NCBI RefSeq assembly: GCF_030294945.1
Contig: NZ_AP018448.1
Location: 62,001-126,000, forward strand
DNA length: 64,000 bases
Reading direction: 5' to 3'
Origin: Streptomyces graminofaciens
Lineage (GTDB): Bacteria; Actinomycetota; Actinomycetes; Streptomycetales; Streptomycetaceae
The notes under the pieces are model-generated. The model saw only the letters and a list, made by a program, of their open reading frames with translations, was not told the DNA's origin and searched no databases. Below, one piece after another: positions 10,182 through 27,379 of this stretch. The position numbers and the translations under genes are program-made. The stretch's first letter is position 1. Each line of letters begins with the position of its first letter.

Positions 10182-10290
10182 TCCACTTATCAGTTTGAGG
10201 GTCGCACAGGACGGTGCCCTCGCAGGCGATCCCCCCACAGCCCTGCACGGGCCACCGGCTGTGTCCCCGAGCCGCACGGGAGACAGCACG

Positions 10291-11601: not shown

Positions 11602-12564
11602 ATGAACAACGACTGGCTCGACACCATCGTGGCCGCCCGGCACGACGCGACGGCCCGGATCGCGGTCCTCGATCTGGTCAGCCCCGACGACGCCGACCTC
11701 CCGGAGTTCGCCGCCGGCGCCCATGTCGACGTACTCGTGGACGACGCCGCCGGACTGGTCCGCCAGTACTCCCTGTGCGGGCCGCCGCACGACCTCACCC
11801 ACTACCGGCTGGCCGTGCTGGCCGAGACGGCGTCACGCGGCGGCTCACTGGGAATGCACCGCCTGCGCGAGGGCGACCGGCTGCGGATCTCGCGTCCGCG
11901 CAACAGGTTCGGGGTCTCGGACCAGGCACATCGCCATCTGCTGGTGGCCGGCGGCATCGGCGTCACCCCCCTGCTGGCCATGGCACACGCGCTCCAGATC
12001 ACGGACTGCGACTACGAGTTGCACTACTGCGCCCGAAGCCGCGCGGACGCGGCCTTCCTCGACGAGCTGGAACGCGACCCCCGTGTCCGGCTCCACTTCG
12101 ACGACGGCCCGGACGACCAGCGGTTCAGCATCGCCGCCGACCTCGGACCGCCCTCCCCCGACACCGCGGTCTACGTCTGCGGCCCCGGCGGCTTCATGGA
12201 CTTCGTGATCTCCTCCGCGCAGGAAGCGGGATGGCCCGCCGAAGCGATCCGCAAGGAGCGCTTCGCACCCGTGCAGGACGCCGAAGTACACACGGCCGGC
12301 GGGACCTTCACCGTGCGGCTCGCCAAGTCCGGGGGCGAGTTCGAGGTCAAGGAAGGCGAGAGCGTCCTCGACGTCCTGCTCGCGGGCGGCGTCGAAGCCC
12401 CCTACTCCTGCCAGCAGGGCATCTGCGGCGAGTGCATCGTGCGCGTGCTCGCCGGGGAGCCCGACCACCGCGACGACATCCTCACCGACCGGGAACGCGC
12501 CGACGGCATGTTCACCACGTGCTCGTCCCGGGCACTCTCACCGACTCTGGAGCTGGACCTGTGA
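11602..12564 (+). CDS. Oxygenase reductase (FMN/NAD and C-terminal 2Fe-2S ferredoxin), VanB/PDR type
   Basis: This 320-residue protein has three domains. The flavin-binding part has QYSLCG near residue 54, and the nucleotide-binding part has LLVAGGIGVTPLLAM near 115 and YVCGPGGFMDFV near 190. A plant-type 2Fe-2S domain at the C-terminus has PYSCQQGICGECIVRVL near 270 and a last cysteine near 306. It passes electrons from NAD(P)H to the Rieske oxygenase encoded nine bases upstream. Order and length fit the phthalate dioxygenase reductase family. Its stop overlaps the start of the next gene by four bases (GTGA), suggesting coupled translation. Confidence 0.92.
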   Translation: MNNDWLDTIVAARHDATARIAVLDLVSPDDADLPEFAAGAHVDVLVDDAAGLVRQYSLCGPPHDLTHYRLAVLAETASRGGSLGMHRLREGDRLRISRPRNRFGVSDQAHRHLLVAGGIGVTPLLAMAHALQITDCDYELHYCARSRADAAFLDELERDPRVRLHFDDGPDDQRFSIAADLGPPSPDTAVYVCGPGGFMDFVISSAQEAGWPAEAIRKERFAPVQDAEVHTAGGTFTVRLAKSGGEFEVKEGESVLDVLLAGGVEAPYSCQQGICGECIVRVLAGEPDHRDDILTDRERADGMFTTCSSRALSPTLELDL

Positions 12565-13007
12565 CCACATCCCCCACGTCCCCCACGTCCCCCACGTCCC
12601 CCACGTCCCCCACGTCCCCCACGTCCCCCACGACCATCGAAGCGATCGAACAGGCGGAAGCCGCATGGCTCGTCGCTCTCGTCGAGGGTGAGAAGGCGAT
12701 GACCGCCCTCATGCTCGACGACAGCCACGTCGTCCACGGACCGGTCGGGAAGATCGACGGCCCGGAGACCTTCGCCCACTTCGCCTCGACCCGCCGCCGC
12801 ACCGTCTTCGCCAAGGCCGAGGGTCTCGCCGTCACTGTGCGCGGCAACACCGCGATCACCACGTGTCTCCAGGAGATGCACATCGTCTTCGACGAGAACC
12901 TCCCGCCGTTCCCGGTCCAGGAGGCCGTGACGCGTGTGTGGGAGGAGACTGCCGAGGGCTGGCGTCTGGCGCACATGCACCAGGCCAAGCGCATGCCGCC
13001 GGCCTGA
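12561..13007 (+). CDS. SnoaL/NTF2-like protein with N-terminal SPT repeats
   Basis: This 148-residue protein begins with a GTG that overlaps the reductase stop. After VTT it has seven exact SPT tripeptides, encoded by seven tandem 9-bp units, and then an NTF2-fold domain (AEAAWLVALVEGEKAMTALM, DDSHVVHGPVGKI, VTRVWEETAEGWRLAHMHQA). NTF2-like proteins may be enzymes, small-molecule binders or oxygenase beta-subunit relatives. Position in the operon suggests a helper of the oxygenase or of a later step. A paralogue at 23998-24417 shares AEAAWLVA and HGPVG motifs. The repeat count is likely to vary between strains. Confidence 0.75.
   Translation: MTTSPTSPTSPTSPTSPTSPTSPTTIEAIEQAEAAWLVALVEGEKAMTALMLDDSHVVHGPVGKIDGPETFAHFASTRRRTVFAKAEGLAVTVRGNTAITTCLQEMHIVFDENLPPFPVQEAVTRVWEETAEGWRLAHMHQAKRMPPA
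12570..12632 (+). repeat. Seven tandem 9-bp repeats (TCCCCCACG)
   Basis: Seven perfect head-to-tail copies of TCCCCCACG encode (Ser-Pro-Thr)7 near the start of the SnoaL-like protein. Because the unit is three codons long, slippage would change protein length without breaking the frame. Confidence 0.97.
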
Positions 13008-13042: not shown

Positions 13043-13059
13043 TGTCCGATGAACGGACA
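13043..13059. promoter_or_regulatory. TGTCCG-N5-CGGACA operator upstream of the aldehyde dehydrogenase operon
   Basis: The 17-bp site TGTCCGATGAACGGACA has perfect 6-bp arms. It matches sites at 20721-20737 and 23128-23144 (consensus TGTYCGWTGAACGG). All three lie before genes of the same aromatic pathway, and one lies in the promoter of the IclR gene. IclR binding is inferred. Confidence 0.65.
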
Positions 13060-13160: not shown

Positions 13161-14651
13161 ATGTCAGCTACTGAGATCGAGGCACCCACGTCCGGCGCGG
13201 TCCGGACCAGCGACCTCCTCATCGCGGGCGAGCACGTCGCGGCCAGGGACGGCCGCTACTTCGAGACCGTCGAGGCCCTGACCGGTGAACCGATCGCACG
13301 GGTCGCGGCTGCCTCAGCCGAGGACGTCAACCTCGCGGTGGACGCCGCGGCGGCGGCGCTGCCCGAGTGGTCGGGCCTCGCGCCGGCCGCACGGCGGGCG
13401 GTCCTGGAACGCGCGGCCGTGCTGCTCGGTGAGCGCACCGACGAGATCGTCGCCACGATGAGCCGCGAGATGGGCGCCACCCTCCCGTGGTGCGGCTTCA
13501 ACGTGCACGTCGCCAAGGGCATGCTCGTCGAGGCCGCCGCCCAGGCCTACGCGGCCGTCGGCGAGGTCATCCCCTCGGACGTGCCCGGCCTCACCGCCCT
13601 CGCCGTGCGCCAGCCGGTCGGCGTCGTCGTCGGCATCGCGCCCTGGAACGCGCCGCTCATCCTCGGCGTGCGCGCCATCGTATGGCCGCTGGTGTGGGGC
13701 AACACCGTGGTGCTGAAGTCGTCCGAGCAGACCCCGCTCACCCAGGCCGCCATCGTCCAGGTCCTGCACGACGCCGGCGTGCCCGCCGGAGCGGTCAACC
13801 TCATCAGCAACGCCCCCGAGGACGGCCCGGCCGTCGTCGAGGCCCTCATCGCCCACCCGGCCGTGACCCGCGTCAACTTCACCGGATCCAGCAGGGTCGG
13901 CCGCATCATCGGCGAACTCGGCGGCCGCCACCTGACCCGCGTCGTCCTCGAACTCGGCGGCAAGGCACCCTTCCTGGTCCTCCCCGACGCGGACCTGGAG
14001 GAGGCCGCCGCGGCAGCGAGCTTCGGCGCCTTCATGAACCAGGGCGAGATCTGCATGTCCACCGAGCGCGTCATCGTCGACCGGACCGTCGCCGACGAAC
14101 TCTCCTCCCGCCTCGCCGAGCGCGCCGCCAAGCTCGTCGTCGGCCCCCCGAGCGACCCCACCTCGCAGATCGGTCCGCTGGTCCACGCGGGCGCCCGTGA
14201 CCATGTGGTGGCGCTGATCGAGGACGCCCGTGCCAAGGGTGCGCAGGTCCTGACCGGCGGCACCCACGACGGCCTGTTCGTGAAGCCCACCGTGCTACGT
14301 GGTGTCACACCGGACATGCGCATCTACACCGAGGAGACCTTCGGCCCGGTGGTCTCGATCATCGAGGTCGACTCCACCGACGAGGCCGTCGCGGTCGCCA
14401 ACGACACCGAGTACGGACTCTCCGCCGCCGTCTTCGGCAAGGACGCCGCCGCAGCGCTGGACGTGGCCCGCCGCATCAGGTCCGGTATCTGCCACATCAA
14501 CGGCGCCACCGTGCACGACGAACCCCAGATGCCCTTCGGCGGCGTCGGCGCCAGCGGCTGGGGCCGCTTCGGCTCCCGCGCCGCACTGGAGGAATTCACC
14601 GAACTGCGCTGGATCACCCTCCAGTCCGGATCCCGCCACTACCCCATCTGA
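13161..14651 (+). CDS. Aromatic aldehyde dehydrogenase (salicylaldehyde/vanillin dehydrogenase-like)
   Basis: This is a 496-residue NAD(P)-dependent aldehyde dehydrogenase. It has the cofactor region VVVGIAPWNAPLILG near residue 155 and FTGSSRVGRIIGELGG near 240. The general base glutamate lies in LELGGKAP near 262 and the catalytic cysteine in NQGEICMSTERV near 296. The NQG-ICMSTER form and FNVHVAKGML near 112 resemble salicylaldehyde, vanillin and benzaldehyde dehydrogenases. It would oxidise aryl aldehydes released by the benzaldehyde-lyase-like enzyme or made by the alcohol dehydrogenase of this cluster. GGAGG precedes the ATG. A candidate IclR operator is about 100 bp upstream, so the gene probably begins its own transcript. 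Confidence 0.9.
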   Translation: MSATEIEAPTSGAVRTSDLLIAGEHVAARDGRYFETVEALTGEPIARVAAASAEDVNLAVDAAAAALPEWSGLAPAARRAVLERAAVLLGERTDEIVATMSREMGATLPWCGFNVHVAKGMLVEAAAQAYAAVGEVIPSDVPGLTALAVRQPVGVVVGIAPWNAPLILGVRAIVWPLVWGNTVVLKSSEQTPLTQAAIVQVLHDAGVPAGAVNLISNAPEDGPAVVEALIAHPAVTRVNFTGSSRVGRIIGELGGRHLTRVVLELGGKAPFLVLPDADLEEAAAAASFGAFMNQGEICMSTERVIVDRTVADELSSRLAERAAKLVVGPPSDPTSQIGPLVHAGARDHVVALIEDARAKGAQVLTGGTHDGLFVKPTVLRGVTPDMRIYTEETFGPVVSIIEVDSTDEAVAVANDTEYGLSAAVFGKDAAAALDVARRIRSGICHINGATVHDEPQMPFGGVGASGWGRFGSRAALEEFTELRWITLQSGSRHYPI

Positions 14652-14882: not shown

Positions 14883-15479
14883 ATGTCGCAGAGCGACAAC
14901 GACCGCCACGAGATCCGGCAACTCGTCGAGAACTGGGCGCTGTGGCGCGACGCCGGGGACTGGGACCGCTTCGCCACCCTCTGGCACCCACGCGACGGCT
15001 GGATGAACGCCACCTGGTTCCAGGGCAGCGCCACCGACTTCATCAAAGCCAGCCGTGAGGGCTTCGAGAACGGCGTCAGCATCCTCCACTTCCTCGGCGG
15101 ACACACCGCCGACATCGTCGGCGACCGGGCCGTCGCCCAGACGAAGATGACCATCAACCAGCGCGCGAGCATCAACGGCGTCGAGGTCGACGTCGTCTGC
15201 ACCGGCCGCTTCTACGACTTCCTCGCCCGCCACCAGGGGCGCTGGACCCTCGTACGCCGGCAGCCGGTCTACGAGCAGGACCGGCTCGACGTCGTCGATC
15301 CCGCCGCCTCACTCACGCTGGACCCTCACCTCCTGAACCGGTTCCCGACCGGTTACCGGCACCTGGCCTACCTGCAGACCAAGGCGGGTTTCACAGTGAA
15401 ACAGGGTCTCCCGGGCCTCACCGGCACAGCAGTCGAACAGCTCTACGCGGAAGGCAAGCAATGGCTGACACAAGCCTGA
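14883..15479 (+). CDS. SnoaL/NTF2-like protein
   Basis: This 198-residue protein has an NTF2-like domain in its first 130 residues ([60 protein letters not shown]). A C-terminal extension of about 65 residues follows. The family is close to SnoaL polyketide cyclases and bile-acid-dehydratase-like proteins, and the chemistry cannot be read from the sequence. AAGGAG lies eight bases before the ATG. Its end overlaps the maleylacetate reductase start by 19 bases, so it is part of the same operon and probably works on an intermediate of the hydroxyquinol branch, or on its precursor. Confidence 0.75.
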
Positions 15480-16534
15480 TGCGGTTCACCCACCAGACCC
15501 TTGCGCAACGGGTGGTGTTCGCCGCGGGTGGATCCCCTGCCGCCGTGGCGGCGGAGGTCGAGGCACTCGGCGGTACCAGGGCCATGCTGATCGCCTCGGA
15601 CCGCGAGAAGGAACTGGCCGACCCCATCGCCAAGGAGATCCCCGTCGTACTGCGCCACGAGGAAGTCGTGATGCACGTACCGGTCGAGGTCGCCGGGCGG
15701 GCCCTTCGGGCGGCCTCCGACACGGACGCGGACATCCTGGTCAGCGTCGGGGGCGGCTCGACCACGGGCCTGGCCAAGGCGGTGGCGCTGACCACCGGAC
15801 TGCCGATCGTGGCCGTACCCACCACCTACGCCGGCTCCGAGGCGACCAACGTCTGGGGACTGACCGAGGGCGAGACCAAGACCACCGGCGTGGACGACAA
15901 GGTACTGCCCGCGTCGGTCGTCTACGACGCAGGCCTCCTGACCACGCTGCCCGGCCGGATGACCGTGGCCAGCGGCCTGAACGCGATGGCGCACTGCGTG
16001 GACTCGATGTGGGGCCCGCGTACCGACCCGATCGACCGGGCGCTGGCGCAGGAGGGCATCCGCGCACTGGCGACAGGCCTGCCGGCGGTGGCTGGCGATT
16101 CGACGAGCGTCCAGGGCATCGAGCAGACTCTGTACGGCGCCTACCTCGCCGCCGTCTCCTTCGCCTCGGCCGGCTCCGGCATGCATCACAAGATCTGCCA
16201 TGTCCTCGGCGGCATGTTCAACCTCCCGCACGCCCAGACCCACGCGGTCGTACTGCCCCACGTGCTGGCCTTCAACGCCCCGCACGCGCCCGAGGCCGAG
16301 AGGCGGGTCGCCCGTGCCTTCGGCACCGACACGGCGAACGCCGGCCTGGCCGCCCTGTGCGAGGCACTGGACGCGCCGCGCTCCCTGCGCGACTACGGCA
16401 TGCCCGAGGACGGTATCGCCAAGGCGCTGGGGCCGATCATGAAGGCGATCCCGGCCAACAACCCCACCCCCGTCACCTACGCGAACCTGACCCTGCTGCT
16501 GCAAGCGGCGTGGGTCGGCGAACCCGTCAGCTGA
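15461..16534 (+). CDS. Maleylacetate reductase (iron-containing alcohol dehydrogenase family)
   Basis: This 357-residue protein has the features of maleylacetate reductases: [17 protein letters not shown] near residue 95, [15 protein letters not shown] near 120 and the metal-site region [15 protein letters not shown] near 175. A further histidine region, [20 protein letters not shown], is near 235. The enzyme reduces maleylacetate to 3-oxoadipate with NAD(P)H, the last specific step before the 3-oxoadipate pathway. It lies directly before an intradiol dioxygenase that would supply maleylacetate, which supports the assignment. The start overlaps the end of the previous gene. Confidence 0.93.
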
Positions 16535-16545: not shown

Positions 16546-17484
16546 ATGGCTACCTACGTCAACCCCGCCTCGGCCCGGACCGACGGCACTGACGCGATCC
16601 ACCGCGAGGTGCCGCCGGAGCAACAGGCGGTCGAGCAGCGGCTCCTCGACGACGTCGTGGCCTCTTTCGGCGGCTGCGGGGACCAGCGGCTGAAGGAACT
16701 CATGGTCGGTCTGATCGGGCACCTGCACTCCTTCATCCGCGAGGTGCGGCTCACCGAGGAGGAATGGGGAGCGGCGATCGACTTCCTCACCCGGGCCGGG
16801 CACATCACCGACGACGTCCGGCAGGAGTTCATCCTGCTGTCCGACACCCTCGGCGCGAGCATGCAGACGATCAACGTCAACAATCAGGCCTACCAGGGCG
16901 CCACCGAGGCGACCGTCTTCGGACCGTTCTTCGTCGAGGACGCCCCCCGCATCGACCTCGGCCAGGACATGGCCTTCGGGGCCCCGGGCGAGCCCTGCTG
17001 GGTCGAGGGCACCGTCACCGACACCGACGGCCGCCCGCTCGCCGGTGCCCGGATCGAGGTCTGGGAGGCCGACGAGGACGGGCTCTACGACGTGCAGTAC
17101 GACGCCGGCAAACGCGCCGGCCGCGCGCACCTGTTCACCGCGGCCGACGGCACCTACCGCTTCTGGGGCCTCACGCCGACGCCGTACCCCATCCCGAACG
17201 ACGGGCCTGTCGGTCAGATGCTCGACGCGGTGGGCCGCTCGCCGCTGCGCGCGGCCCACCTGCACTTCATGGTCTCCCACGAGGGGGCGCGCACCCTGGT
17301 GACCCACATCTTCCCCGAGGGAGACCCGATCGGCCGCAAGGACACCGTCTTCGGCGTCAAGGACTCGCTGGTCAAACGGTTCGAGCAGCAGCCCGCGGGT
17401 GCACCGACGCCCGACGGGCGTGTCATCGACGGCACGTGGAGCCGGGTCCGCTTCGACATCGTCCTCGCTCCCGGGGACGTGTGA
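16546..17484 (+). CDS. Hydroxyquinol 1,2-dioxygenase-type intradiol dioxygenase
   Basis: This 312-residue protein has the N-terminal helical dimer domain of catechol/hydroxyquinol dioxygenases ([20 protein letters not shown]) and then the beta-sandwich catalytic domain. Tyrosine iron ligands are expected at [10 protein letters not shown] near residue 210 and in the region before it, and histidine ligands at RAAHLHFMV near 238. Intradiol enzymes use ferric iron to split the ring between adjacent hydroxyls. The neighbouring maleylacetate reductase points to hydroxyquinol (1,2,4-trihydroxybenzene) as substrate, with maleylacetate as product. A chlorocatechol-type enzyme is the main alternative, but no cycloisomerase or dienelactone hydrolase is present. 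It is the last gene of the rightward operon, followed by a strong terminator. Confidence 0.9.
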
Positions 17485-17485
17485 C

Positions 17486-17537
17486 CCGAAAACGACGGAG
17501 GGGCGGGCCTGCGGGCCCGCCCCTCCGTCGTTTTCGG
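17486..17537. terminator. Perfect 23-bp stem hairpin, bidirectional terminator
   Basis: The arms, beginning CCGAAAACGACGGAGG, pair perfectly over 23 bp around a 6-base loop. The stem lies between the convergent dioxygenase and VOC genes, with AAAA on one side and TTTT on the other, so it can stop transcription from both directions. Confidence 0.93.
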
Positions 17538-17545: not shown

Positions 17546-18109
17546 TCAGGCCGGTAGCAACTCCGCGAAGTCCCTGACAGGTCGCGACCCGTCCCAGTCG
17601 ACCGATGCCCGCCAGACGGATGTGAACAACTGCCGGGTGATCTCGTTGTCCTGAACCAGCTCGATCATCGCCGGGGCGTCTTCGCCGCCGTCCAGGAAGA
17701 AGACCTCACCCCCCGGTGCCACATCGTGGAAACGCACCACCGCCCCGCTCGCCTCGCGGCGTTCGACCTCCGCCCTGACGTCCGGCACGATCTTGGCGAC
17801 ATGGTGGAAGCCGTAGCCGTGGCGTTCGCGGGCGTCCTTGTAGATGGACGGCTCGTCGTCCAGGGTCTGGATCAGCTCGATCATCATGTGCCCCGAGAAG
17901 GCGAGTGCCAGGGTGAACTCGGCCCTGCCCGGCGCACCACGGTAGGTGGAGCCCTCGCCGCCGATCCTGTGGTTCACGAACCAGGGGCCGACGCCGAGGT
18001 GTTCGGTCCACCAGCGCATTCCGGCGGTGAGGTCGGGGACGGCGTACGCGACCTGGACGACGGCATCGGTCGGCTGGCCGAAGGGGAACTCCACGGTGGT
18101 TCTCCTCAT
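17546..18109 (-). CDS. VOC-superfamily (glyoxalase/extradiol-fold) protein
   Basis: This 187-residue protein begins VQVAYAVPDLTAGMRWWTEH and continues with FTLALAFSGHMMIELIQTLD and GYGFHHVAKIVPD. These are typical of two-module VOC proteins that bind a divalent metal; His and Glu candidates are in HMMIELI and FHHVAK. Members include glyoxalases, methylmalonyl-CoA epimerases and ring-cleaving enzymes, and the function here is not clear. The ATG at 18109 overlaps the SDR stop (ATGA). A GTG at 18094, preceded by GAGGAG, is an equally good start and would shorten the protein by five residues. It is the last gene of the lyase operon. Confidence 0.8.
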   Translation of the reverse strand: MRRTTVEFPFGQPTDAVVQVAYAVPDLTAGMRWWTEHLGVGPWFVNHRIGGEGSTYRGAPGRAEFTLALAFSGHMMIELIQTLDDEPSIYKDARERHGYGFHHVAKIVPDVRAEVERREASGAVVRFHDVAPGGEVFFLDGGEDAPAMIELVQDNEITRQLFTSVWRASVDWDGSRPVRDFAELLPA

Positions 18110-18906
18110 CTGACCGGAGGACGGATGAAGCTGGTGAGGCCGCCGTCCACCAGGAGGGCCGAACCGGTGATGTATCCGGCCTCGGCCGACGCGAGGAAGA
18201 GCACAGCGTCGGCAAGTTCGTCCGGTTCGCCCTCGCGAAGCATGGGCGTGCTGAGCCTGATCCTCTCCCGGAAGGCGTCCGCTCCCCCGGGCGCCAGGCC
18301 CGTCGTGCGAGAGGCGATGTCGGTGTTCATGCCCGCCGGGATGACGATGTTGACGCGGATACCGTCGGCGACGACCTCGGCGGCGAGAATCCGCGTCAGG
18401 TGCTCCAGGGCGGCCTTGCTGGCTCCGTACGCGGCGGTTCCCGCGCTGGCCCTGCGGCCGGCCGCCGAGCCGCAGAAGACGACGGCCCCGCCAGGTGCGA
18501 GCAGGGGCCGGAGAGCTTGCATGAGGAAGAACGCGCCCTTGACGTTGGTATCGAACACCCGGTCCCAGGTGGCCTCGTCCATGTCGTCGATGCGCTTCAT
18601 GCCCGCGTGTCCCGCGTTGATGTACGCGGCGTCCACACGGTCGACTTGTGCGGCGACCTCGCTGATCGCGGCCCTGATGCCGTCGACGGTGGAGAGGTCG
18701 GCCGCGACGGTGACCGTGCCGTCGCCGATCAGCTCAGCTGCGGTCTTCAGCTGGTCGGTGTCGCGGGCGATGACCACCACGCGCGCGCCCTCACGCGCGA
18801 AGGCCTGTGCCGCTGCAAGCCCCAGGCCCCGGCTGCCGCCGGTGACGAGGCAGGTCTTGCCGGAGAAGCGCCGGCGCCGGTCTGTGACGGGCAGGTCGCG
18901 GTTCAT
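18106..18906 (-). CDS. Short-chain dehydrogenase/reductase
   Basis: This 266-residue enzyme is a classical SDR with the NAD(P) motif TGGSRGLG near residue 22, the NAG equivalent INAGHAG near 96, and serine at VFCGSAAG near 148. The catalytic YGASK is near 165. It is coupled by ATGA overlaps to the benzaldehyde-lyase-like gene upstream and the VOC gene downstream. It may therefore oxidise or reduce an alpha-hydroxyketone (acyloin) or diol on the way to or from the lyase. That substrate is an inference from the operon, not from the sequence. Confidence 0.87.
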   Translation of the reverse strand: MNRDLPVTDRRRRFSGKTCLVTGGSRGLGLAAAQAFAREGARVVVIARDTDQLKTAAELIGDGTVTVAADLSTVDGIRAAISEVAAQVDRVDAAYINAGHAGMKRIDDMDEATWDRVFDTNVKGAFFLMQALRPLLAPGGAVVFCGSAAGRRASAGTAAYGASKAALEHLTRILAAEVVADGIRVNIVIPAGMNTDIASRTTGLAPGGADAFRERIRLSTPMLREGEPDELADAVLFLASAEAGYITGSALLVDGGLTSFIRPPVR

Positions 18907-20600
18907 GCGTCGACCTCGATGCCGCCGAACGGGGCTCCGCCGTTCAGGACGCGCTCCTCGGGAGGAATGGGCGCGAGGCTCACGCGTACGTCGATGCAGG
19001 TCGGCCGGCGGGCCGCCAGGGCCGCCTCGATCGCCGGGCCGAGCTGGTCCAGTTCGGTGACGTCGACGCCGTCCGCGCCGAGGGACCGTGCCACTGCGCT
19101 GTAGGAGCCGTTCTCCAGGCGGTTGTTGATGACGCGGTCCTCGCCGAAGAGGAACTGCTGGGTGTGCAGGGTGGCGCCCCAGGCCCGGTTGTTGAGAACG
19201 ATCACGACGACCGGGAGGCCCGCCCTGACAAGCGAGTCGAACTCGGCCAGGCTGTAGCCGACGGCGCCGTCGCCGGTGACGAGGATCGTCGCCTTGTCGG
19301 GGGCGGCGTACTGCGCGCCCAGTGCCACTCCGAAGTTGCTGCCCATCGCGCTGAGGTAGCCGTGGCCGAGGTAGTGGGCCAGCGGTGCGAGCGCGATGGT
19401 CTCGGAGAGCCACAGTTCGGTCAGGGCGCCGTCGACGACGACGGTGGCCTGGTCGGGCACGTTCTCGGCGATCGTGCGCACGGCGAGGTAGGGATGGATA
19501 GCGGCGTCCTCGTGTTGCTCGGTCTCGGTGGCGAGCGCGGACCGCCGAGTGGCGGAGATGTCGCGCAGGGCCGCCAGCCAGTCGTCGCGGCCCGCGGGCG
19601 CGGCGGTGTCGCCCAGGCGCTCGTTCAGCAGGCCGATCGTGCCGACCGGGTCGGCCTGGACGCCGAGTTCGACGTCCTGCAGTCGGCCCAGCTCACGGCC
19701 GTCCGGATCGATCTGGAAGATCCGCGCACTCTTCGGGAGCAGTCGGCCGGTGCCGAACTGGGTGGCCATTCCGAAGCGCAGCCCGAGCATCAGGACCAGG
19801 TCGGGCCGCTCGTCCTCGACGGCGGTGGCCAGGGTCTGGACGAGGCCGACGTGCTGTGCGGAGCCGGCGATCGCCCCGAGACCCTCCCAGTCGGAGAAGA
19901 GGGGCACACCGGCACGGGCGGCGAACTCGTGCAACAGGGCCCGTGCCTCGGCGGTCACGAAGGACTTGCCGACCAGCGCGACCGGGCGCCGGGCGGTGTT
20001 CAGCGCGTCGAGGATGCGGTCGACGGCACCGGCCGGGGATACGCCGGTGCCGTCGGCCCCGGTGCGGTAGTCGTCGACCTCGTCGACGTCCACCGACTGG
20101 CGCAGGACGTCCCAGGGAATGTCCAGGAGCACCGGCCCTCTGGGCTCCGACCGGGCGATACGGATCGCCTGGGCGACCAGACGCGGGATCAGGTCGGTAC
20201 GGGTGACGCGGTGCGCGAACTTGGTCACGGGGGCCGCCATGGCGACCTGGTCGAAGCCGGCCTGCTGGTCGTTGACCTGGTCCGTCTCCAGAGGACCTGA
20301 GCCCGCGATGTACAGGACGGGGGTCCGGTCCAGGTGGGCGTTGGCGACGGAGGTCAGGACGTTGGTGAAGCCGCCGCCGGCCGTGACGACGGCGACCCCC
20401 AGATCCCCGGTGACCCGTGCGTAGCCCTCCGCCGCGTGGCCGGCGTTCATCTCGTGGCGCACGTCGACGACCCGCAGCTTGGCGTCCAGGGCGTCCTGGA
20501 GGATGCCGTCGATGTGCGCGCCGGGCAGGCCGAAGGCCACGTCGACCCCGGCTCGTTGCAGGGCTCGTACGACGAGTGCACTACCGGTTGCGGTTGCCAT
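18903..20600 (-). CDS. Benzaldehyde lyase-like thiamine-diphosphate enzyme
   Basis: This 565-residue ThDP enzyme has a cofactor-activating Glu50 in VRHEMNAGH and a ThDP/Mg motif GDGAVGYSLAEFDSLV near residue 440, with NNRAWGATLH after it. It matches my memory of benzaldehyde lyase (BAL) of Pseudomonas fluorescens closely. Ala28, His29, Glu50, Gln113 and Trp163 fall at identical numbers (GLPGAHID, NDQQAGFDQ, IPWDVL), blocks such as VTAGGGFTN and DQVAMAAP are shared, and the C-terminus has PIPPEE. BAL cleaves benzoin and anisoin into aryl aldehydes and can also form such acyloins. Acetolactate synthase and benzoylformate decarboxylase are less likely because they do not share this set of residues. 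The aldehyde and alcohol dehydrogenases nearby fit an aryl aldehyde product. It is first in its operon, with its own candidate IclR site. Confidence 0.82.
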   Translation of the reverse strand: MATATGSALVVRALQRAGVDVAFGLPGAHIDGILQDALDAKLRVVDVRHEMNAGHAAEGYARVTGDLGVAVVTAGGGFTNVLTSVANAHLDRTPVLYIAGSGPLETDQVNDQQAGFDQVAMAAPVTKFAHRVTRTDLIPRLVAQAIRIARSEPRGPVLLDIPWDVLRQSVDVDEVDDYRTGADGTGVSPAGAVDRILDALNTARRPVALVGKSFVTAEARALLHEFAARAGVPLFSDWEGLGAIAGSAQHVGLVQTLATAVEDERPDLVLMLGLRFGMATQFGTGRLLPKSARIFQIDPDGRELGRLQDVELGVQADPVGTIGLLNERLGDTAAPAGRDDWLAALRDISATRRSALATETEQHEDAAIHPYLAVRTIAENVPDQATVVVDGALTELWLSETIALAPLAHYLGHGYLSAMGSNFGVALGAQYAAPDKATILVTGDGAVGYSLAEFDSLVRAGLPVVVIVLNNRAWGATLHTQQFLFGEDRVINNRLENGSYSAVARSLGADGVDVTELDQLGPAIEAALAARRPTCIDVRVSLAPIPPEERVLNGGAPFGGIEVDA

Positions 20601-20720: not shown

Positions 20721-20737
20721 TGTTCGTTGAACGGCCT
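20721..20737. promoter_or_regulatory. IclR-type operator upstream of the benzaldehyde-lyase-like gene
   Basis: TGTTCGTTGAACGGCCT matches the sites at 13043 and 23128 at 13 of 17 positions. It lies in the 198-bp gap between the alcohol dehydrogenase stop and the lyase start, which suggests a separate promoter for the lyase operon. Confidence 0.55.
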
Positions 20738-20798: not shown

Positions 20799-21899
20799 TC
20801 AGGTTTCCGGCATCCTGAGCACGGCCTTGATCACCCGTCCGGAACCGGTCTCGGTCCACGCATGGGCGAAGTCGCTGAACTCGAACTCCTCGATCATCCG
20901 GTCGAAGGGGAACCGGCCCGCCCGCCAGTACTCGACGAGCTGGGGGATCAGGACGTGGGGGTTGGCCGAGCCTCCGATGATCCCCTGGAGCCTGCGGCCC
21001 CCGGCGAGGAGGAAGCCGGTGTCCGGGACCCATTCGCCCGCGGGCGCCACCACGCAGCCGAGGGTGCCTTCGACAGCGAGGCACCTCGTCGCGGTCGCGT
21101 AGACGGAGGGTACGTCGGTGGTGACGTACGCGAAGTCGAAGCCGTCGGGGTCGATGTCCCGCAGTGCCTGTTCGGCTCCGGCGCCGCCGAGCACGGTGTC
21201 GGTCGCGCCCAGTTCCCGGGCGAGGTCGAGCCGGGGCGGGTTGATGTCGACGGCGACGATGTGCCGGGCGCCTGCGAGACGGGCGGCCATGACGGCCGCG
21301 AGCCCCACGCCTCCGGTGCCGAACACCGCGATCGACTGTCCCGGGCGCAGGCGGAACGCCTCCAGGACCGAGCCCGCGCCCGTGATGACACCGCAGCCGA
21401 GCGGCCCCATCAGGTGTAGCGGGACGTCCTTCGGCAGCAGGACCGCGCTGCGTGCGGGTGCCAGCGCGTAGGTCGCGAAGGAGGACTGTCCGAAGAACAT
21501 GGCCGCGATCCGGTCACCGGCCTGGGTGAGCGGTGAGCTGCCGTCGAGCCGCGCACCGCCGAAGGCCACCCGCATCGCCTCCCGGCAGTAGGTGGGCCGG
21601 GCGTCCAGGCAGCGGGGGCACACACCGCAGGAGTTGCCCGAGAGCACCACGTGGTCACCGGGTACGAGGCGGGTCACCCCGGCGCCGACCGCCTCCACGA
21701 CACCCGCGCCCTCGTGCCCCAGCACGATCGGGCGGGGAACGGGGACTCCACGGCCGGCGTGCGCGTTGATGTCGGTGTGGCAGATACCTGTCGCTGTGAT
21801 GCGCACCAGGACCTCGTCCGGCCTCGGTTCACCGAGGTCGGCCTGTTCCAGCCCGGGGACGGTGCCGCTCTCGCGGGAGACCGCTGCGGTGATCTTCAT
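20799..21899 (-). CDS. Zinc-dependent aryl-alcohol dehydrogenase (MDR family)
   Basis: This 366-residue medium-chain dehydrogenase has the catalytic zinc ligands in GICHTDINAH near residue 40 and GHEGAGVVEAVG near 62. The structural zinc cysteines are in SCGVCPRCLDARPTYC near 90, and the NAD fold is VFGTGGVGLAAVMAARLAGA near 190. The overall pattern resembles benzyl-alcohol dehydrogenases (XylB type). It probably interconverts an aryl alcohol and aldehyde, feeding the aldehyde dehydrogenase at 13161. It is coupled by an ATGA overlap to the FAD hydroxylase gene upstream. Confidence 0.88.
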   Translation of the reverse strand: MKITAAVSRESGTVPGLEQADLGEPRPDEVLVRITATGICHTDINAHAGRGVPVPRPIVLGHEGAGVVEAVGAGVTRLVPGDHVVLSGNSCGVCPRCLDARPTYCREAMRVAFGGARLDGSSPLTQAGDRIAAMFFGQSSFATYALAPARSAVLLPKDVPLHLMGPLGCGVITGAGSVLEAFRLRPGQSIAVFGTGGVGLAAVMAARLAGARHIVAVDINPPRLDLARELGATDTVLGGAGAEQALRDIDPDGFDFAYVTTDVPSVYATATRCLAVEGTLGCVVAPAGEWVPDTGFLLAGGRRLQGIIGGSANPHVLIPQLVEYWRAGRFPFDRMIEEFEFSDFAHAWTETGSGRVIKAVLRMPET

Positions 21900-23083
21900 G
21901 AGAAGGCGGCCTCCGGGTCGTACTCGTAGATCCAGCCGTTCTCCCTGAGTGGGTCGGCCTGCGCGTACTGCCGGTCGCGTGCCTGCTGCTCGGGGCCGTC
22001 GGGGAGGTGGTTGATGTGGGACCTGCCGTGCGACACCTCCTGGAGGCGGGCCGTGCGGCGCCGGCGCAGTTCCTCGTAGCGGCCCAGCGCGGCGATCGGG
22101 TGGTCCGGGTCGGCCGCGAGGCACAGGGCGAGGGCGGCGCCGTCCTCGATCGCCTGGGCGGCGCCCTGGGCGAAGAACGGGAACATCGGGTGTGCCGCGT
22201 CGCCCAGCAGCGTCGCGTTGCCGCGGTTCCAGTGGTCGAGGGGTTCACGGTCGAGGAGCGCCCAGCGGCCTGGGGTCTCGGCCGACTTGATCAGCTGCAC
22301 CAGCCGGGGGTCCCAGCCGGCGAACTCGTCGAGCAGTTCCTGGACCGTCGCGGTGGCCGTCCAGGACTCCACGCTGTCGGCTCCGGCCGGCGCGAAGGCG
22401 ACGAGGTTGACGTACTCCCCGCCGGAGACCGGGTAGTGCACGAGGTGGTGGTCGGGGCCGATCCAGAGGGTCTGGGCGCGCCGCCTGGCGAAGTCGGGGG
22501 CCTTCTGCGCCGGCACGAGGGCCCGGAAGGCACAGATGCCCGACTCCCGCGCCTGGGTCGGGCCGACGATGGCGCCGCGCACCCGTGAGTGGACCCCGTC
22601 GGCGCCGATGAGGATGTCCGGGCGGACCGTCTCGCCGTCCTCGAACCGCAGAACGGCCTGGTCGCCTTCGAACTCGACCGCGACACAGCGTCTGCCGAGG
22701 TGGAGCGAGTGCTCGGGTACGGCGGAGCGCAGGGCGTCCAGCAGGTCGGCGCGGTGGGCGGTGTAGGTGTGCTCGCCGTACAGGCGGATGCACCCCTCCT
22801 CCAGGTTCTCCGCCGAGAGGACGGTGCCGTTCTGCCAGCGCCGGAACTCCCAGCCTGTCTCCATCCGGACCGCGCGCTCGATGAACCGGTCCAGGACGCC
22901 GAGGCGCCGTAGCAGGCGGGCGGCGTTGGGCGCGATCACCAGACCCGCGCCGACCTCGGTCAGGGCGGACGCCTGCTCATAGACGTGGCTCTCGAAACCC
23001 TGTTCATGCAGGAAAGCCGCGGCAGCCAGGCCCCCGATGCCGCCGCCGAGGATCGCGATCCTGGGGCTGTCTTCTGTGCTCAT
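21896..23083 (-). CDS. FAD-dependent aromatic hydroxylase (salicylate/3-hydroxybenzoate hydroxylase-like)
   Basis: This 395-residue class A flavoprotein monooxygenase has the FAD motif ILGGGIGGLAAAAFL near residue 12, the DG motif LIGADGVHSRVRG near 160, and the GD motif TLLGDAAHPMFPFFAQGAAQ near 285. The last of these is typical of the salicylate 1-monooxygenase and 3-hydroxybenzoate 6-monooxygenase group. With the hydroxyquinol dioxygenase, the simplest role is decarboxylating or ring hydroxylation of a dihydroxybenzoate to hydroxyquinol. Two adjacent ATGs are present; the second (23083) is chosen because AGGAG would be too close to the first. It is divergent from the IclR gene, and a candidate operator lies between. 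Confidence 0.87.
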   Translation of the reverse strand: MSTEDSPRIAILGGGIGGLAAAAFLHEQGFESHVYEQASALTEVGAGLVIAPNAARLLRRLGVLDRFIERAVRMETGWEFRRWQNGTVLSAENLEEGCIRLYGEHTYTAHRADLLDALRSAVPEHSLHLGRRCVAVEFEGDQAVLRFEDGETVRPDILIGADGVHSRVRGAIVGPTQARESGICAFRALVPAQKAPDFARRRAQTLWIGPDHHLVHYPVSGGEYVNLVAFAPAGADSVESWTATATVQELLDEFAGWDPRLVQLIKSAETPGRWALLDREPLDHWNRGNATLLGDAAHPMFPFFAQGAAQAIEDGAALALCLAADPDHPIAALGRYEELRRRRTARLQEVSHGRSHINHLPDGPEQQARDRQYAQADPLRENGWIYEYDPEAAFS

Positions 23084-23127
23084 CATGCTCCTAGAGTTCG
23101 GCACGCTGACCATTGGAGGAATCACCT

Positions 23128-23144
23128 CATCCGTTCAACGGACA
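23128..23144. promoter_or_regulatory. IclR-type operator between the hydroxylase and IclR genes
   Basis: CATCCGTTCAACGGACA contains the perfect palindrome TCCGTT-C-AACGGA. Its reverse strand matches the site at 13043 at 14 of 17 positions. Lying in the 106-bp divergent gap, it could control both the hydroxylase operon and iclR itself. Confidence 0.65.
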
Positions 23145-23189: not shown

Positions 23190-23969
23190 ATGCCCCGCGC
23201 GAACGAGCCCGGACGGACCGTCAGTTCCCGGCTGTGGGATCTGCTGTTCGCCTTCGACCAGGACCACACCGAGCTGAGCCTCGCCGACCTGGTCAGGCGT
23301 ACCGGCATCCCGCACGCCACCGCGCGGCGGCTCACGCTCGAACTCGTGGAGGCCGGCGCGCTGGAGCGCACCGGCGACAACCGGTTCGCGATCGGCCTGC
23401 AGCTGTGGCGTCTGGGCACACTCGCACCGCGCGCCGAGACCCTGCGCAGCGCCGCCCAGCCGTTCGTGGAGGACCTATACACGGCTCTGCGCCAGCATGT
23501 GCAGCTGGCCGTGCTCCAGGGTGACCAGGCCGTGATCATCGAACGGCTCTCGGCGGTCAACGCCGTCGGTCTCACCTCGCAGGTCGGCGGCCATCTGCCC
23601 CTGCACTGCTCGGGTGTCGGCAAGGTGCTGCTGAGCCACAGCAGTCCGGAGTTCATCTACGAGGTACTGGCAGGCAGGCTGCGGCGCTTCACTCCGAAGA
23701 CGATCGTGGACCCGGCCGAACTGCGGCGTGAACTGGCGTCCTGCCGTTCGACGGGAACGGTGGTCGTCAAGGAGGAGCTGAGCGAGGGGGCCGAGTCGGT
23801 CGCGACCCGGATCGTCGACGGCACCGGCAGGGTCGTCGCGGCCCTGTCCGTCGTGGTGGCAGCGGGCTCGATCAAACTGCAGGCGGCCGTGCCCTCGCTG
23901 GTCGCGAGCGGACTGGGACTGTCGAGGAGTCTCGGCTGGCGGCCGGGCATCCCCATTCGCACGTCATGA
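23190..23969 (+). CDS. IclR-family transcriptional regulator
   Basis: This 259-residue regulator has a winged HTH at about residues 12-70 (LSLADLVRRTGIPHATARRL). The IclR effector domain follows (LPLHCSGVGKVLL near 140, EESVATRI-type block near 200). IclR proteins often control aromatic catabolism (PcaR, PobR and CatR types) and bind pathway acids or lactones as effectors. AGGAG precedes the ATG. Three similar 17-bp sites in front of the aldehyde dehydrogenase, lyase and hydroxylase operons make it the likely pathway regulator. Whether it activates or represses cannot be told. Confidence 0.88.
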   Translation: MPRANEPGRTVSSRLWDLLFAFDQDHTELSLADLVRRTGIPHATARRLTLELVEAGALERTGDNRFAIGLQLWRLGTLAPRAETLRSAAQPFVEDLYTALRQHVQLAVLQGDQAVIIERLSAVNAVGLTSQVGGHLPLHCSGVGKVLLSHSSPEFIYEVLAGRLRRFTPKTIVDPAELRRELASCRSTGTVVVKEELSEGAESVATRIVDGTGRVVAALSVVVAAGSIKLQAAVPSLVASGLGLSRSLGWRPGIPIRTS

Positions 23970-23997: not shown

Positions 23998-24417
23998 TCA
24001 TAGCGCAGGTTGCCGCCGGGAGAGCTGCATGTGGCCGAGCCGCCATCCCTCCCCGGTCGCGAACCACACCCGGGTGGCCACCGCCTGCACCAGGAACGGC
24101 GGCAGGTCTGGCACCCGCCGGATGCGCATCTTCTGAAAGCAGGTCACGACGGCCCGCTCCTCTCGCTCCTGGCACGTCACCTCGCTGGTCTCGGCCTCGA
24201 TGGTCGCTCCCATCGACGCGTTGTAGGCAAGGAAGCGCTCGCGGTCGTGGACATGGCCGACCGGCCCATGCACGATCACGCAGTCAGGAAGCATCAGCGC
24301 GCGCTGCTCCTGGTCTCCTTTCGTGATCGCGACGAGCCATGCCGCCTCCGCCCGGGCGACCGCGTCCGGCATGCGGACGTCGTCCTTGCTGCTCGGTGCT
24401 GACTGTGTGGTGGTCAT
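23998..24417 (-). CDS. SnoaL/NTF2-like protein, paralogue of 12561-13007
   Basis: This 139-residue protein has an NTF2-like domain (ARAEAAWLVAITKGDQEQRA, CVIVHGPVGHVHDRERFLAY, ATRVWFATGEGWRLGHMQLS). It aligns over its length with the SnoaL-like protein beside the oxygenase reductase, but lacks the SPT repeats. AGGAG precedes the ATG. The two copies bracket the aromatic cluster, suggesting a duplicated accessory function. It ends 28 bp from the convergent IclR gene. Its biochemical role is unknown. Confidence 0.72.
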   Translation of the reverse strand: MTTTQSAPSSKDDVRMPDAVARAEAAWLVAITKGDQEQRALMLPDCVIVHGPVGHVHDRERFLAYNASMGATIEAETSEVTCQEREERAVVTCFQKMRIRRVPDLPPFLVQAVATRVWFATGEGWRLGHMQLSRRQPAL

Positions 24418-24546: not shown

Positions 24547-26256
24547 TCAGCCGTCGAGGGTGTGCGGGTCGTCATCGAGATGTGTCTCTCCCGGGCCGCC
24601 GCGCCCACCCAGGAGAGTGAGTGCCGCGGCAACGAGAGCGGCCACGCCCCCGAGCACGTAGGCGTGGGAGTAGCTGTCGCTGAGTGCCTGGAAGGCGACG
24701 TCCTTGAGCGGGTTGAAGGGGATGACCTGGCCGTCCGGCGAAGTGACAGTGGCCGGCACGGAGTTGGCGCCGAGGGGTCCCGAGGACACGGCGTGCACCG
24801 CCGCCTCCAGCTGCGGTCTCTGGTCCGCGGGGGCGTGTGCCGGGGCGGCCTGGAAAGCCTCGTACGCCTTGCTCAGTGCGGGGTTGGCGGCCACCTCGCG
24901 GGCCATCTCCTTGGCGGCCTGGCCCAGCGCGACGGCGCCCGCGATCGCGGGGCCGAAGGCAAACCCGAGGTCCCGGAACGTGCTCGTGGCACCGCTCGCC
25001 ATGCCGGCGAGGCGGTTGGGCAGCGCGTTGACCGCGACCGCGCTCATGGCGGCGAAGGCGAGTCCCGAGCCGGTGCCCGCAAGGATGAGCGGCCCGACGA
25101 TGGAGCCCAGCGCCCGGTCGCTCGCCGGAACTCCGGCGAACCACAGCCCGCCGACCCCGATGAGGACCAGGCCGGCGAAGAGGACCCACCGGGGGTTGTA
25201 GCGCTCCAGCAGCTTCGCCGTGAGCGGCAGCAGCACCAGGCCGATGCCTCCGAAGAAGAGGTAGGCGATGGAACTCTTCAGCGGGCTGAATCCCTGGACG
25301 GTGGTCAGGCGGATGCTGGTGGAGTACATGATCGCGAGGAAGCCGAACATACCGATCACGGTGACCACCGAGTTGATGGCGAACGCCCGGTTCTTGAACG
25401 CGCTCAGGAGGAGGAGCGGCTGGGCGACCTTGCCCTCCACGACCACGAACAGCACCAGGAAGATCCCCGCGGCGACGAACGCGATGACGATCTGCGGGCT
25501 CCCCCAGCCGCTCTCGGGACCCTGGATCACGGCGTAGAGCAGAGCGAACAGGCCGAGCGCGGCGGTGATCTGCCCCGGCCAGTCGAGGGAACGGCCTTCG
25601 GGCGCGGCGGAGTTCTGGGCGAGGATCAGCGACAGCGTCACGCTGACCAAGGCGATGACCATGATGCCGACGTAGGCCCAGCGCCAGTTCCCGGTCCCGT
25701 CCCAGCCGGTGTGGATCTTGGCGGCGACGCCTGCCAGCAGCGGTCCGAGGAAGCCGCCGATGGAGAGTGCGGCGGCCCAGACCGCCACGCCACGGGCGCG
25801 GGTGGCGGTGGTGTGGGTGCCGGCCGCCACCATGGCGAGGCTCGTGGGGAAGATGGCCGCGGCCCCGATGCCGCTGAGGAGCTGACCGATGATCAGCAAC
25901 GTCACCCGGGTGTCCGTCGACGACCCCTCACCCGGCACCAGGACCGCGACGGCCGAGCCGACGACGATGAGCACGGCACCCCCGACGAGCAGGCGCTTGC
26001 GGCCGAAGAGGTCACCGAACACGCCGAAGCCCAGCTCCAGCGCGGCGACGGGGATGAAGAAGGCGTCGACGATCCACGTCAGCTGCGCCGAGGACGGCGC
26101 GAGATCCTGCTGGATCAGCCCGGTGATGAGCGAGGGGACGGAAAGGGCCATCTGCGACAGGCACACGGCGAGCACCACCGCGGCCAGCGTGCCGCGCCCC
26201 AGGGTGTATCTGGCGCTCTCCCCGCTCGCCTCGGCGGGTGAATCGGTCTGGACCAT
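24547..26256 (-). CDS. DHA2-type MFS transporter (14 membrane segments)
   Basis: This 569-residue membrane protein starts LAAVVLAVCLSQMALSVPSL and carries the loop signature GVFGDLFGRKRLLVGGAVL near residue 90. About fourteen hydrophobic segments follow, with a large external loop near the C-terminus (residues 470-540). This matches the drug:H+ antiporter-2 group. These pumps usually export toxic compounds. In an aromatic-degradation cluster it may export a toxic intermediate such as an aldehyde, or move a substrate, but this is only inferred. The start is set by AAGGAG before MVQTD. It diverges from an SDR gene across a 376-bp gap. Confidence 0.87.
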   Translation of the reverse strand: MVQTDSPAEASGESARYTLGRGTLAAVVLAVCLSQMALSVPSLITGLIQQDLAPSSAQLTWIVDAFFIPVAALELGFGVFGDLFGRKRLLVGGAVLIVVGSAVAVLVPGEGSSTDTRVTLLIIGQLLSGIGAAAIFPTSLAMVAAGTHTTATRARGVAVWAAALSIGGFLGPLLAGVAAKIHTGWDGTGNWRWAYVGIMVIALVSVTLSLILAQNSAAPEGRSLDWPGQITAALGLFALLYAVIQGPESGWGSPQIVIAFVAAGIFLVLFVVVEGKVAQPLLLLSAFKNRAFAINSVVTVIGMFGFLAIMYSTSIRLTTVQGFSPLKSSIAYLFFGGIGLVLLPLTAKLLERYNPRWVLFAGLVLIGVGGLWFAGVPASDRALGSIVGPLILAGTGSGLAFAAMSAVAVNALPNRLAGMASGATSTFRDLGFAFGPAIAGAVALGQAAKEMAREVAANPALSKAYEAFQAAPAHAPADQRPQLEAAVHAVSSGPLGANSVPATVTSPDGQVIPFNPLKDVAFQALSDSYSHAYVLGGVAALVAAALTLLGGRGGPGETHLDDDPHTLDG

Positions 26257-26632
26257 GGACGACTCCTTGCGCGCGGCGCGCGCTGCTGTCGGAACCGGCG
26301 TTCTCAGCCGGACCTTGCTGGGGTGCTCTTGTCCGGGCATGCGCAGACACCGCCGCCGAACCGCCCCGGGGGCCTGCGCGGACCCGCTCCGCGTGGCTCT
26401 GTGACCAACCCTGATTCAGGTCGCCCGGCGCGGTGAGCGACCTGCCGGGCAGCGACAAGGTAGGAAGTGACCCCCGTCACGCTCAATGGACATGTTCATC
26501 AGACGAACAGAGCGCCCCTCGGCGGCCGCCCCGATGCCCACCATTCAGCAGTGACCGCCGTACCGGGACAGGTCCTCGCACACGGCGTGCGCCGCCCCGG
26601 TTCCTTTCGAGCACCGACAGGAGAACCGAGTC
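26257..26632. promoter_or_regulatory. Divergent promoter region of MFS and SDR genes
   Basis: This 376-bp gap holds no supported gene. It contains TGTTC-N7-GAACA at 26493-26509, a 17-bp inverted repeat of the same length as the IclR-type sites but matching them only in the TGTTC/GAACA ends. It may be an operator for either divergent gene. Confidence 0.4.
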
Positions 26633-27379
26633 ATGGCTGGAAAACTGACCGGCAAGACAGCCGTCGTGACGGGGGGCAGCACCGGCATCGGGCAGGAGAT
26701 CGCCCGCAGGCTCGCGGCAGAGGGGGCGGACATCGCGGTCGCGGACGTCGATCCGGCCGACGAGACAAGGGAACTCGTGGCGGAAACCGGCCGGCGATTC
26801 CTCAGCGACAAGGTCGACATCTCCGATGAGGAGGCGATCCACGGATTTGCCGCGCGCGTGCGAAGCGAACTGGGTGCCGCCGACATCCTGGTGAACAACG
26901 CGGCCGTCGTACTCCTGGCGGACTTCGAGCACGTGACCCTCGACCAGTGGCGTCGCACCTTCGCCGTCAACGTGGACGGCGCCTTCCTTGCTTCCAAGGC
27001 GTTCCTGCCGGACCTGAAGGCGTCCGGGTCGGGACGCATCGTCAACATCACCTCGTCGAGCTACTGGACCGCGCCGCCGCCCTTCGTCTCCTACATCTCC
27101 GCCAAAGGCGCCCTGAACGGATTCACCTCCGTCCTGGCCGCCAACCTCGCCGCTCACGGCATCACCGTCAACGGCGTCGCGGCAGGTCTGGTCCGGACCG
27201 CAGCGGCCGTGGAGAACACGAGCGAGGCCTTCTTCGAGCAGGCCGTGCAGATCCAGGACATCAAACGGGTGCAGATGCCGACCGACGTCTCCGGCGTCGT
27301 GGCGTTCCTCGCCTCCGAAGACGCATCGTTCATCACGGGGCAGATCATCGTCGCGGACGGCGGCAGCACACGCCGCTGA
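26633..27379 (+). CDS. Short-chain dehydrogenase/reductase (FabG-like)
   Basis: This 248-residue classical SDR has TGGSTGIG near residue 14, LVNNAAV near 87, serine in NITSSSY near 138 and the catalytic YISAK near 151. The C-terminus ITGQIIVADGGS is the usual one of the family. CAGGAG precedes the ATG. It is a single-gene unit diverging from the MFS transporter and followed by IS debris and a terminator. The substrate is unknown; an alcohol or ketone linked to the nearby aromatic cluster is possible. Confidence 0.85.
   Translation: MAGKLTGKTAVVTGGSTGIGQEIARRLAAEGADIAVADVDPADETRELVAETGRRFLSDKVDISDEEAIHGFAARVRSELGAADILVNNAAVVLLADFEHVTLDQWRRTFAVNVDGAFLASKAFLPDLKASGSGRIVNITSSSYWTAPPPFVSYISAKGALNGFTSVLAANLAAHGITVNGVAAGLVRTAAAVENTSEAFFEQAVQIQDIKRVQMPTDVSGVVAFLASEDASFITGQIIVADGGSTRR

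Follow-up and report, generated by a model that had tools for sequence, protein, structure and literature searches.

Why should a gene resembling benzaldehyde lyase (BAL) lie among genes for hydroxyquinol breakdown? The question is raised by a stretch of 64,000 nucleotides from Streptomyces graminofaciens (the window; bases 62001–126000 of an 11.6 Mb single-contig genome), in which the open reading frame (ORF) 18903–20600 on the minus strand encodes an enzyme dependent on thiamine diphosphate (ThDP). The initial annotation of this DNA had taken the product to be BAL-like and its surroundings to be a possible full route from aryl acyloins to 3-oxoadipate. The answer that we favour, at slightly better than an even chance, is that the genes form a catabolic regulon, probably run by an IclR regulator, in which the BAL-clade enzyme serves as the C–C lyase.

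The lyase and its substrate pocket

The ORF is uninterrupted, starts with ATG and encodes 565 amino acids that comprise all three TPP_enzyme domains. Its highest-scoring PDB matches are 8y8m and 8y7s (644 and 641 bits), followed by Pseudomonas fluorescens BAL (PfBAL; PDB entry 3d7k; 570 bits) and the engineered formolases, which were made from BAL (562 bits); beyond the formolases, the other ThDP enzymes of the PDB score at most 207 bits. The identity is 53% to PfBAL over the full length and 59% to 8y8m. The records of 8y8m and 8y7s say only thiamine pyrophosphate-binding protein; we take them to be Herbiconiux BAL. In a maximum-likelihood tree of 21 proteins, the lyase falls into a BAL clade (support 100/100) together with PfBAL, 8y8m, a second Streptomyces type of BAL and a Croceicoccus protein. 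Eight ThDP paralogues from the same genome fall outside this clade. The BAL-like label is thereby borne out, and the phylogeny that had been proposed as its check places the lyase apart from acetolactate-type paralogues, in a sample restricted to eight of the 11 other ThDP matches in the genome and with benzoylformate decarboxylase left out. Judged by its sequence, the product is a BAL-clade ThDP enzyme.

The five residues that the initial annotation had listed as shared with BAL at the same numbers (Ala28, His29, Glu50, Gln113 and Trp163) do match PfBAL in the alignment, and His415 and Ala480 are likewise equal. We presume catalytic roles for His29, Glu50, Gln113, Trp163 and Ala480. The clade member from Croceicoccus bisphenolivorans (locus L035, 10001–11689) has an asparagine at the position of His29; its gene neighbourhood contains an aldehyde dehydrogenase (ALDH), a methyltransferase, a Rieske oxygenase and a SnoaL_4 protein, the last of which gave no match in a PDB protein search.

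Compared with PfBAL (PDB entries 3d7k and 2ag0), the catalytic set is alike, whereas the window lyase carries the replacements L112Q, H286F, Y397E and F484T. Gln112, Phe286, Glu397 and Thr484 are present in 32 of 32 aligned rows of its subclade (some rows being repeats). PfBAL, 8y8m, the second Streptomyces type and the Croceicoccus protein all have Leu112, His286, Tyr397 and either Phe or Ala at 484 (8y8m itself has Ala484, and Ile at position 28), so that the window subclade departs from the BAL-type pocket at each of the four positions. As these replacements extend across the subclade, plain benzoin or anisoin is probably not the natural substrate. If the four positions line the substrate pocket, as we assume, the natural substrate would be more polar than benzoin. 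The P. fluorescens host of BAL was reportedly found by growth on benzoin or anisoin. The acyloin route of the initial annotation therefore survives in part: the linkage to hydroxyquinol genes is upheld by synteny and by a shared motif, and benzoin or anisoin as natural substrate is disfavoured by the changes at positions 112, 286 and 397. This linkage is a further difference from PfBAL.

A conserved cluster with a shared upstream motif

Searching the genome_contigs collection by pattern returned 26 loci; such a scan finds only relatives that share short peptides and so is not exhaustive. The window-type set (n = 21) consists of 20 of these loci, 19 from Streptomyces (a single S. griseoruber genome contributing three) and one from Actinoplanes, plus L011, another copy of the cluster elsewhere in the genome of the window. 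The remaining scanned loci are five of the second BAL type (57–63% identity) and the one from Croceicoccus. The IclR regulator (23190–23969, plus strand) is present in 21 of 21 window-type loci, and an FAD hydroxylase (FMO; 21896–23086, minus strand) is found with at least 84% identity in 20 of 21 (two of them partial), the copy in L019 having 63%. Fifteen of the 21 carry the set made up of an ALDH (13161–14651, plus strand; Pfam Aldedh, 508 bits), a decarboxylase candidate (14883–15479, plus strand), an Fe-dependent dehydrogenase that is presumably a maleylacetate reductase (15461–16534, plus strand) and a hydroxyquinol 1,2-dioxygenase (16549–17484, plus strand; predicted start); within these 15, the ALDH of L020 is cut by the contig end and the dioxygenase of L019 is 72% identical and lies apart. 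Of the 15 loci with the Fe-dehydrogenase, 14 have the intradiol dioxygenase next to it.

The closest of the loci compared is that of S. iakyrus (L015), with cluster proteins 92–98% identical and a transporter 78% identical. The cluster is rare: it occurs in 11 of 392 Streptomyces genomes, the window's own included. Among 396 genomes from across the phylum, and again among 100 relatives, one genome has it, each time the window's own. The second copy (L011; C1, about 2.53–2.55 Mb) is incomplete, its other proteins being 78–96% identical. Downstream of it lies a second set of Rieske oxygenase, reductase and SnoaL_3 genes (46–62% identity). The BAL of L036 matches only partially and that of L038 comes in four overlapping pieces, apparently through decay or assembly faults. 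The neighbours named in the initial annotation (ALDH, Zn-dependent alcohol dehydrogenase, FAD hydroxylase, Rieske oxygenase, intradiol dioxygenase and Fe-dependent dehydrogenase) are all recovered by domain scans; the decarboxylase and the second cluster copy had escaped it.

The spacer upstream of IclR contains, in 22 sequences, a 17 bp near-palindrome with the commonest form TGTTCGTTGGATGGATG. A matrix was built from these 22 sites alone and then applied to the other spacers. The motif is found 103–131 bp upstream of the ALDH gene in 14 of 14 loci. Upstream of BAL, mostly at 131–147 bp, it is present in 33 of 34 sequences, a count that takes in repeats and the window itself; the exception is Actinoplanes (L033). 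The ALDH and BAL sites score 12.9–22.1, and 400 random 250 bp stretches from window positions 32000–63000 peak at 9.7. Not one of 500 column-permuted matrices attains the mean score of the true matrix at ALDH (14 sequences) or at BAL (11 of the 34), and 318 of 500 do so for the Rieske gene; in the matrix scan no motif precedes the Rieske or the TetR gene (0/10 each, largely the same spacer). At a threshold of 11, and with the window itself set aside, the motif precedes BAL in 20 of 21 loci, ALDH in 14 of 14 testable loci and the pair formed by an MFS transporter and a short-chain dehydrogenase (SDR2) in 19 of 21; the sites upstream of IclR, recovered in 21 of 21, are the training sites themselves.

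In the window, the motif occurs as TGTCCGATGAACGGACA upstream of ALDH (13043–13059, plus strand), where it is a putative IclR operator, upstream of BAL (20721–20737, plus strand), between IclR and FMO (23128–23144, minus strand; a training site) and between the MFS and SDR2 genes (26493–26509, plus strand). The score of 12.9 at the BAL site is the lowest of all BAL sites found. Two strict patterns, both composed after the sites were known, occur at nine places in the 11.6 Mb genome, seven of which are within the two BAL clusters, with none for reversed controls; the window BAL site is missed by them. One of the two outside places (L080, 6729–6745) is directly before another intradiol dioxygenase gene, with a relative of IclR nearby. 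On account of this common motif, BAL, FMO and the operon of ALDH, decarboxylase, reductase and dioxygenase probably belong to one regulon, which would place BAL with the hydroxyquinol route, and we infer that IclR is the protein that binds the motif.

The decarboxylase candidate and the accompanying enzymes

The protein encoded at 14883–15479 has the Pfam domain SnoaL_4 only. In the PDB it matches AGDC1 (6w54) with 71.5 bits and PPP2 with 69.4 bits, after which the score drops to 19.6 bits. The residues described for AGDC1 and PPP2 in PMC7862292 were compared: Trp35, Asp40, Trp61 and His86 are preserved, as are Arg39, Thr60 and Tyr150 in the alignments, and Tyr146 is replaced by Arg. An AlphaFold model (pLDDT 93.9) superposes on AGDC1 and PPP2 (7jmr) with TM scores of 0.91 and 0.93, and the predicted structure has the fold, the His86–Asp40 dyad and the Trp35/Trp61 clamp of these enzymes. 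The window protein differs from them in being bacterial, in an identity of just 25–30% and at position 146. An assignment as an LdpA-like, stilbene-forming deformylase was rejected, since sequence and fold both point to AGDC1/PPP2; LdpA has a TM score of 0.57 and its entries appear only from rank 23. The protein is thus a candidate for a bacterial cofactor-free hydroxybenzoate decarboxylase. In PMC7862292, homologues reported from lactic bacteria are judged to be without the catalytic histidine.

The decarboxylase occurs with at least 88% identity in 11 of 11 BAL genomes. Among the 381 genomes without BAL, any match at 1e-20 is found in nine and a match of at least 65% identity in five, one of them partial; these counts take two draws of 392 genomes to be identical. 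Relatives without BAL were inspected in three of these five genomes (L084, L085 and L086), together with the third AGDC1-type gene of the window's own genome (L081, 8465–9082). L084, L085 and L086 also contain an intradiol dioxygenase (43–66% identity) and a relative of the reductase (45–65%). L084, L085 and L081 contain a PF00903 protein of 304–308 amino acids, extradiol-type by size and family, and an FAA-hydrolase relative, neighbours that would fit a decarboxylase producing catechols. In L086 the decarboxylase adjoins an AP_endonuc_2 family protein. This family includes dehydroshikimate dehydratases, which yield protocatechuate. An AGDC1-type decarboxylase suggests a protocatechuate-like intermediate, and together with the changed pocket of the lyase it speaks for a ring that bears hydroxyl groups, 3,4-dioxygenation being the most likely pattern. 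The natural substrate of the lyase would then be a hydroxylated aryl alpha-hydroxyketone, probably 3,4-dioxygenated.

The dioxygenase is of the hydroxyquinol type, with 445 bits to 1tmx against 115 bits to the best catechol 1,2-dioxygenase. Its neighbour reaches the cut-off of no NCBIfam model and owes the label of maleylacetate reductase to its Fe-ADH domains and position. The FMO matches tropone 2-monooxygenase (275 bits), 8r2t (243 bits), decarboxylative vanillate 1-hydroxylase (227 bits) and a protein named 4-hydroxybenzoate decarboxylase (212 bits); an HLPDGP..ARD motif recurs unaltered in 8r2t and the vanillate hydroxylase, and in part in tropone 2-monooxygenase and the protein named 4-hydroxybenzoate decarboxylase. 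In Rhodococcus jostii RHA1, protocatechuate is reportedly converted to hydroxyquinol (Spence 2020), with hydroxylase, decarboxylase, dioxygenase and reductase genes lying together. No BAL is known from that route. In PMC10815724, the conversion of protocatechuate to hydroxyquinol is cited for R. jostii and Agrobacterium, and hydroxyquinol was observed as a metabolite in Pseudarthrobacter.

The BAL gene is followed on its strand by genes for a short-chain dehydrogenase (SDR1; 18106–18906, minus strand; Pfam adh_short) and a protein of the VOC/glyoxalase superfamily (17546–18109, minus strand; Pfam Glyoxalase_4), and both the BAL/SDR1 and the SDR1/VOC junctions are ATGA overlaps. In the second BAL type, BAL is preceded by SDR-family genes in all five loci and followed by a gene of the VOC family in four (the sequence of L037 stops inside BAL); these SDR and VOC relatives are 30–40% identical. 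An ALDH gene and a carotenoid-oxygenase-family gene lie nearby, the domain scan for this type covering L032. In our reading, such an arrangement would serve to prepare a ketol, cleave it and remove the aldehyde. The lignostilbene dioxygenase pathways treated in PMC12997858 and PMC8191317 likewise lead from two-ring compounds to aryl aldehydes, by different chemistry; the link to them is the carotenoid-oxygenase-family gene near the BAL relatives in five loci. The label of lignostilbene dioxygenase was rejected for the oxygenase of L032, which has Trp, Phe and Phe at the positions of Phe59, Tyr101 and Lys134 (assuming a chain offset of one residue) and lacks the Tyr101/Lys134 pair, two of the three key residues. 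A region of the window's own genome without BAL (L087; C1, 7.125–7.144 Mb) contains genes for an FAA hydrolase, an FMO, an ALDH and a carotenoid/stilbene-type oxygenase that are 82–91% identical to those of the second BAL-type cluster (oxygenase 90%).

The left part of the cluster begins with a TetR regulator ORF (9418–10248, minus strand; Pfam TetR_N), orthologues of which flank the cluster in many loci; its helix-turn-helix begins at amino acid 87 and the true start is therefore inside the ORF. Next comes a Rieske oxygenase (10177–11592, plus strand; predicted start; VanA_C 24.6 bits against a cut-off of 23.5), the top PDB matches of which are phthalate-dioxygenase-like and chiefly concern the N-terminal portion, with its presumed partner, an NAD/2Fe-2S reductase (11602–12564, plus strand), and a small SnoaL_3/NTF2-like protein (12603–13007, plus strand; predicted start; AlphaFold model with pLDDT 90). 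Between the convergent dioxygenase and VOC genes lies a long perfect hairpin (17487–17536), likely a bidirectional terminator. To the right of BAL are the Zn-dependent alcohol dehydrogenase (Zn-ADH; 20799–21896, minus strand; the ORF extends to 22124 and the start is estimated from the domain), a second small SnoaL_3-like protein (23998–24417, minus strand), the MFS transporter (24547–26340, minus strand) and SDR2 (26633–27379, plus strand). A fold search with the small SnoaL_3 proteins gave only general NTF2-like matches. An alpha-L-rhamnosidase gene (27583–31254) adjoins the cluster here and in L015, where it likewise carries a motif-like site; as it does so in no other locus compared, it was rejected as a pathway member. 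On the left-hand side of the cluster there is a transposase-like gene (6947–7927). With the contig end 62 kb from the first base of the window, the region may belong to a variable chromosome arm.

The proposed route and its alternatives

In the route that we propose, SDR1, where present, would oxidize a vicinal diol to an aryl alpha-hydroxyketone, a step that would be dispensable, as several loci have no SDR1. The ThDP lyase would cleave this ketone into two aldehydes as BAL does, which its clade and conserved catalytic residues suggest, and the ALDH would turn the aldehyde into a benzoate. The Rieske pair may then demethylate or hydroxylate the benzoate, the weakest of the steps. The decarboxylase and the FAD hydroxylase would jointly remove the carboxyl group and add a hydroxyl group to give hydroxyquinol, and the hydroxyquinol 1,2-dioxygenase and the Fe-dehydrogenase would lead on to 3-oxoadipate. 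The carboxyl group may be lost through the decarboxylase, through the FMO, or through one of them for each half of an unsymmetrical substrate. More broadly, and here we are tentative, leaning somewhat towards doubt, the cluster could encode a bacterial route devoted to aryl alpha-hydroxyketones of plant or lignin origin: a BAL with a shifted substrate would be its entry enzyme, most operons would share one operator, and a bacterial relative of the fungal, cofactor-free AGDC1 decarboxylases would lead to hydroxyquinol.

Several observations weigh against the regulon and the route. With a score of 18.5, a motif-like site inside the rhamnosidase gene (27939–27955) outranks those that the window has at ALDH, BAL and MFS, and four or five of the 84 above-threshold sites in the 21 loci are inside rhamnosidase or near no cluster gene. 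The Rieske gene is without the motif, which makes its place in the route unsure. Lower-pathway genes are missing from the stretch examined in six of 21 loci, in one of which (L014; G683) the decarboxylase is on a different contig. SDR1 is whole in 12 of the 21 loci, in pieces in five and unmatched in four, and VOC is whole in 12, in pieces in three and unmatched in six; L011 has no SDR1 or ADH match and VOC in pieces only. Being so often broken or missing, SDR1 and VOC are either dispensable or being lost. If both acted on one substrate, a decarboxylase and a decarboxylating hydroxylase would duplicate each other, and the top match of the FMO, tropone 2-monooxygenase, is no decarboxylating enzyme. 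The pocket positions that are uniform among the other BAL-clade members are altered here, and the MFS transporter is nearest to DHA2 efflux types, below cut-off.

A less likely substrate is an acyloin derived from an isoflavonoid or deoxybenzoin and bearing a 2,4-dihydroxyphenyl ring. Once cleaved and oxidized, it would give 2,4-dihydroxybenzoate, from which a decarboxylating FMO would produce hydroxyquinol directly, ipso-hydroxylation achieving this in one step. Three of the best matches of the FMO are decarboxylating or uncharacterized 1-hydroxylase-like enzymes, and the reference list of PMC10815724 cites a 4-hydroxysalicylate/hydroxyquinol cluster. Against this, the decarboxylase retains Thr60 and Tyr150, which hold the hydroxyl groups of the catechol-type ligand in AGDC1, and no isoflavone-specific gene was recognized among the scanned genes; we regard this origin of the substrate as unlikely. 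Searches of the isoflavone and resveratrol literature brought up no matching pathway.

A short aryl hydroxyketone such as the lignin C2 ketol ArCO-CH2OH could be split into an aryl aldehyde and formaldehyde, the latter being handled by the Zn-ADH. This enzyme is similar to dehydrogenases of the NDMA-dependent and class III/mycothiol types, with every match below cut-off. The changed positions, if they form the pocket as we presume, also speak for this reading, but the Zn-ADH is matched in only eight of 21 loci and we give such a substrate a low probability. That the lyase is instead an arylglyoxylate decarboxylase, or catalyses some other ThDP reaction, appears improbable to us: the superfamily is versatile, the pocket is unlike that of PfBAL and benzoylformate decarboxylase is outside the tree sample, yet Ala28, His29, Glu50, Gln113, Trp163 and Ala480 are intact, the BAL clade is tight and Glu397 would be expected to disfavour a second carboxylate. 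Cleavage of a hydroxylated aryl alpha-hydroxyketone is the reaction that we favour.

No description of a catabolic gene cluster with a BAL-type enzyme was found in searches of open-access papers. The chemistry of each enzyme family involved is known; what seems new, judged by these searches, is the way they are combined, together with the altered BAL subclade and the AGDC1-type protein of bacterial origin. Chiral acyloins are already made with BAL, and the cluster supplies a natural BAL subclade with an altered pocket as well as a candidate for a bacterial cofactor-free hydroxybenzoate decarboxylase. It also offers a regulator, a substrate class and a set of downstream genes that can be tested. 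Membership in the regulon hints at the purpose of BAL-type enzymes in nature, which, if the broader reading as a dedicated pathway is true, would have a function in nature that goes further than growth on benzoin or anisoin.

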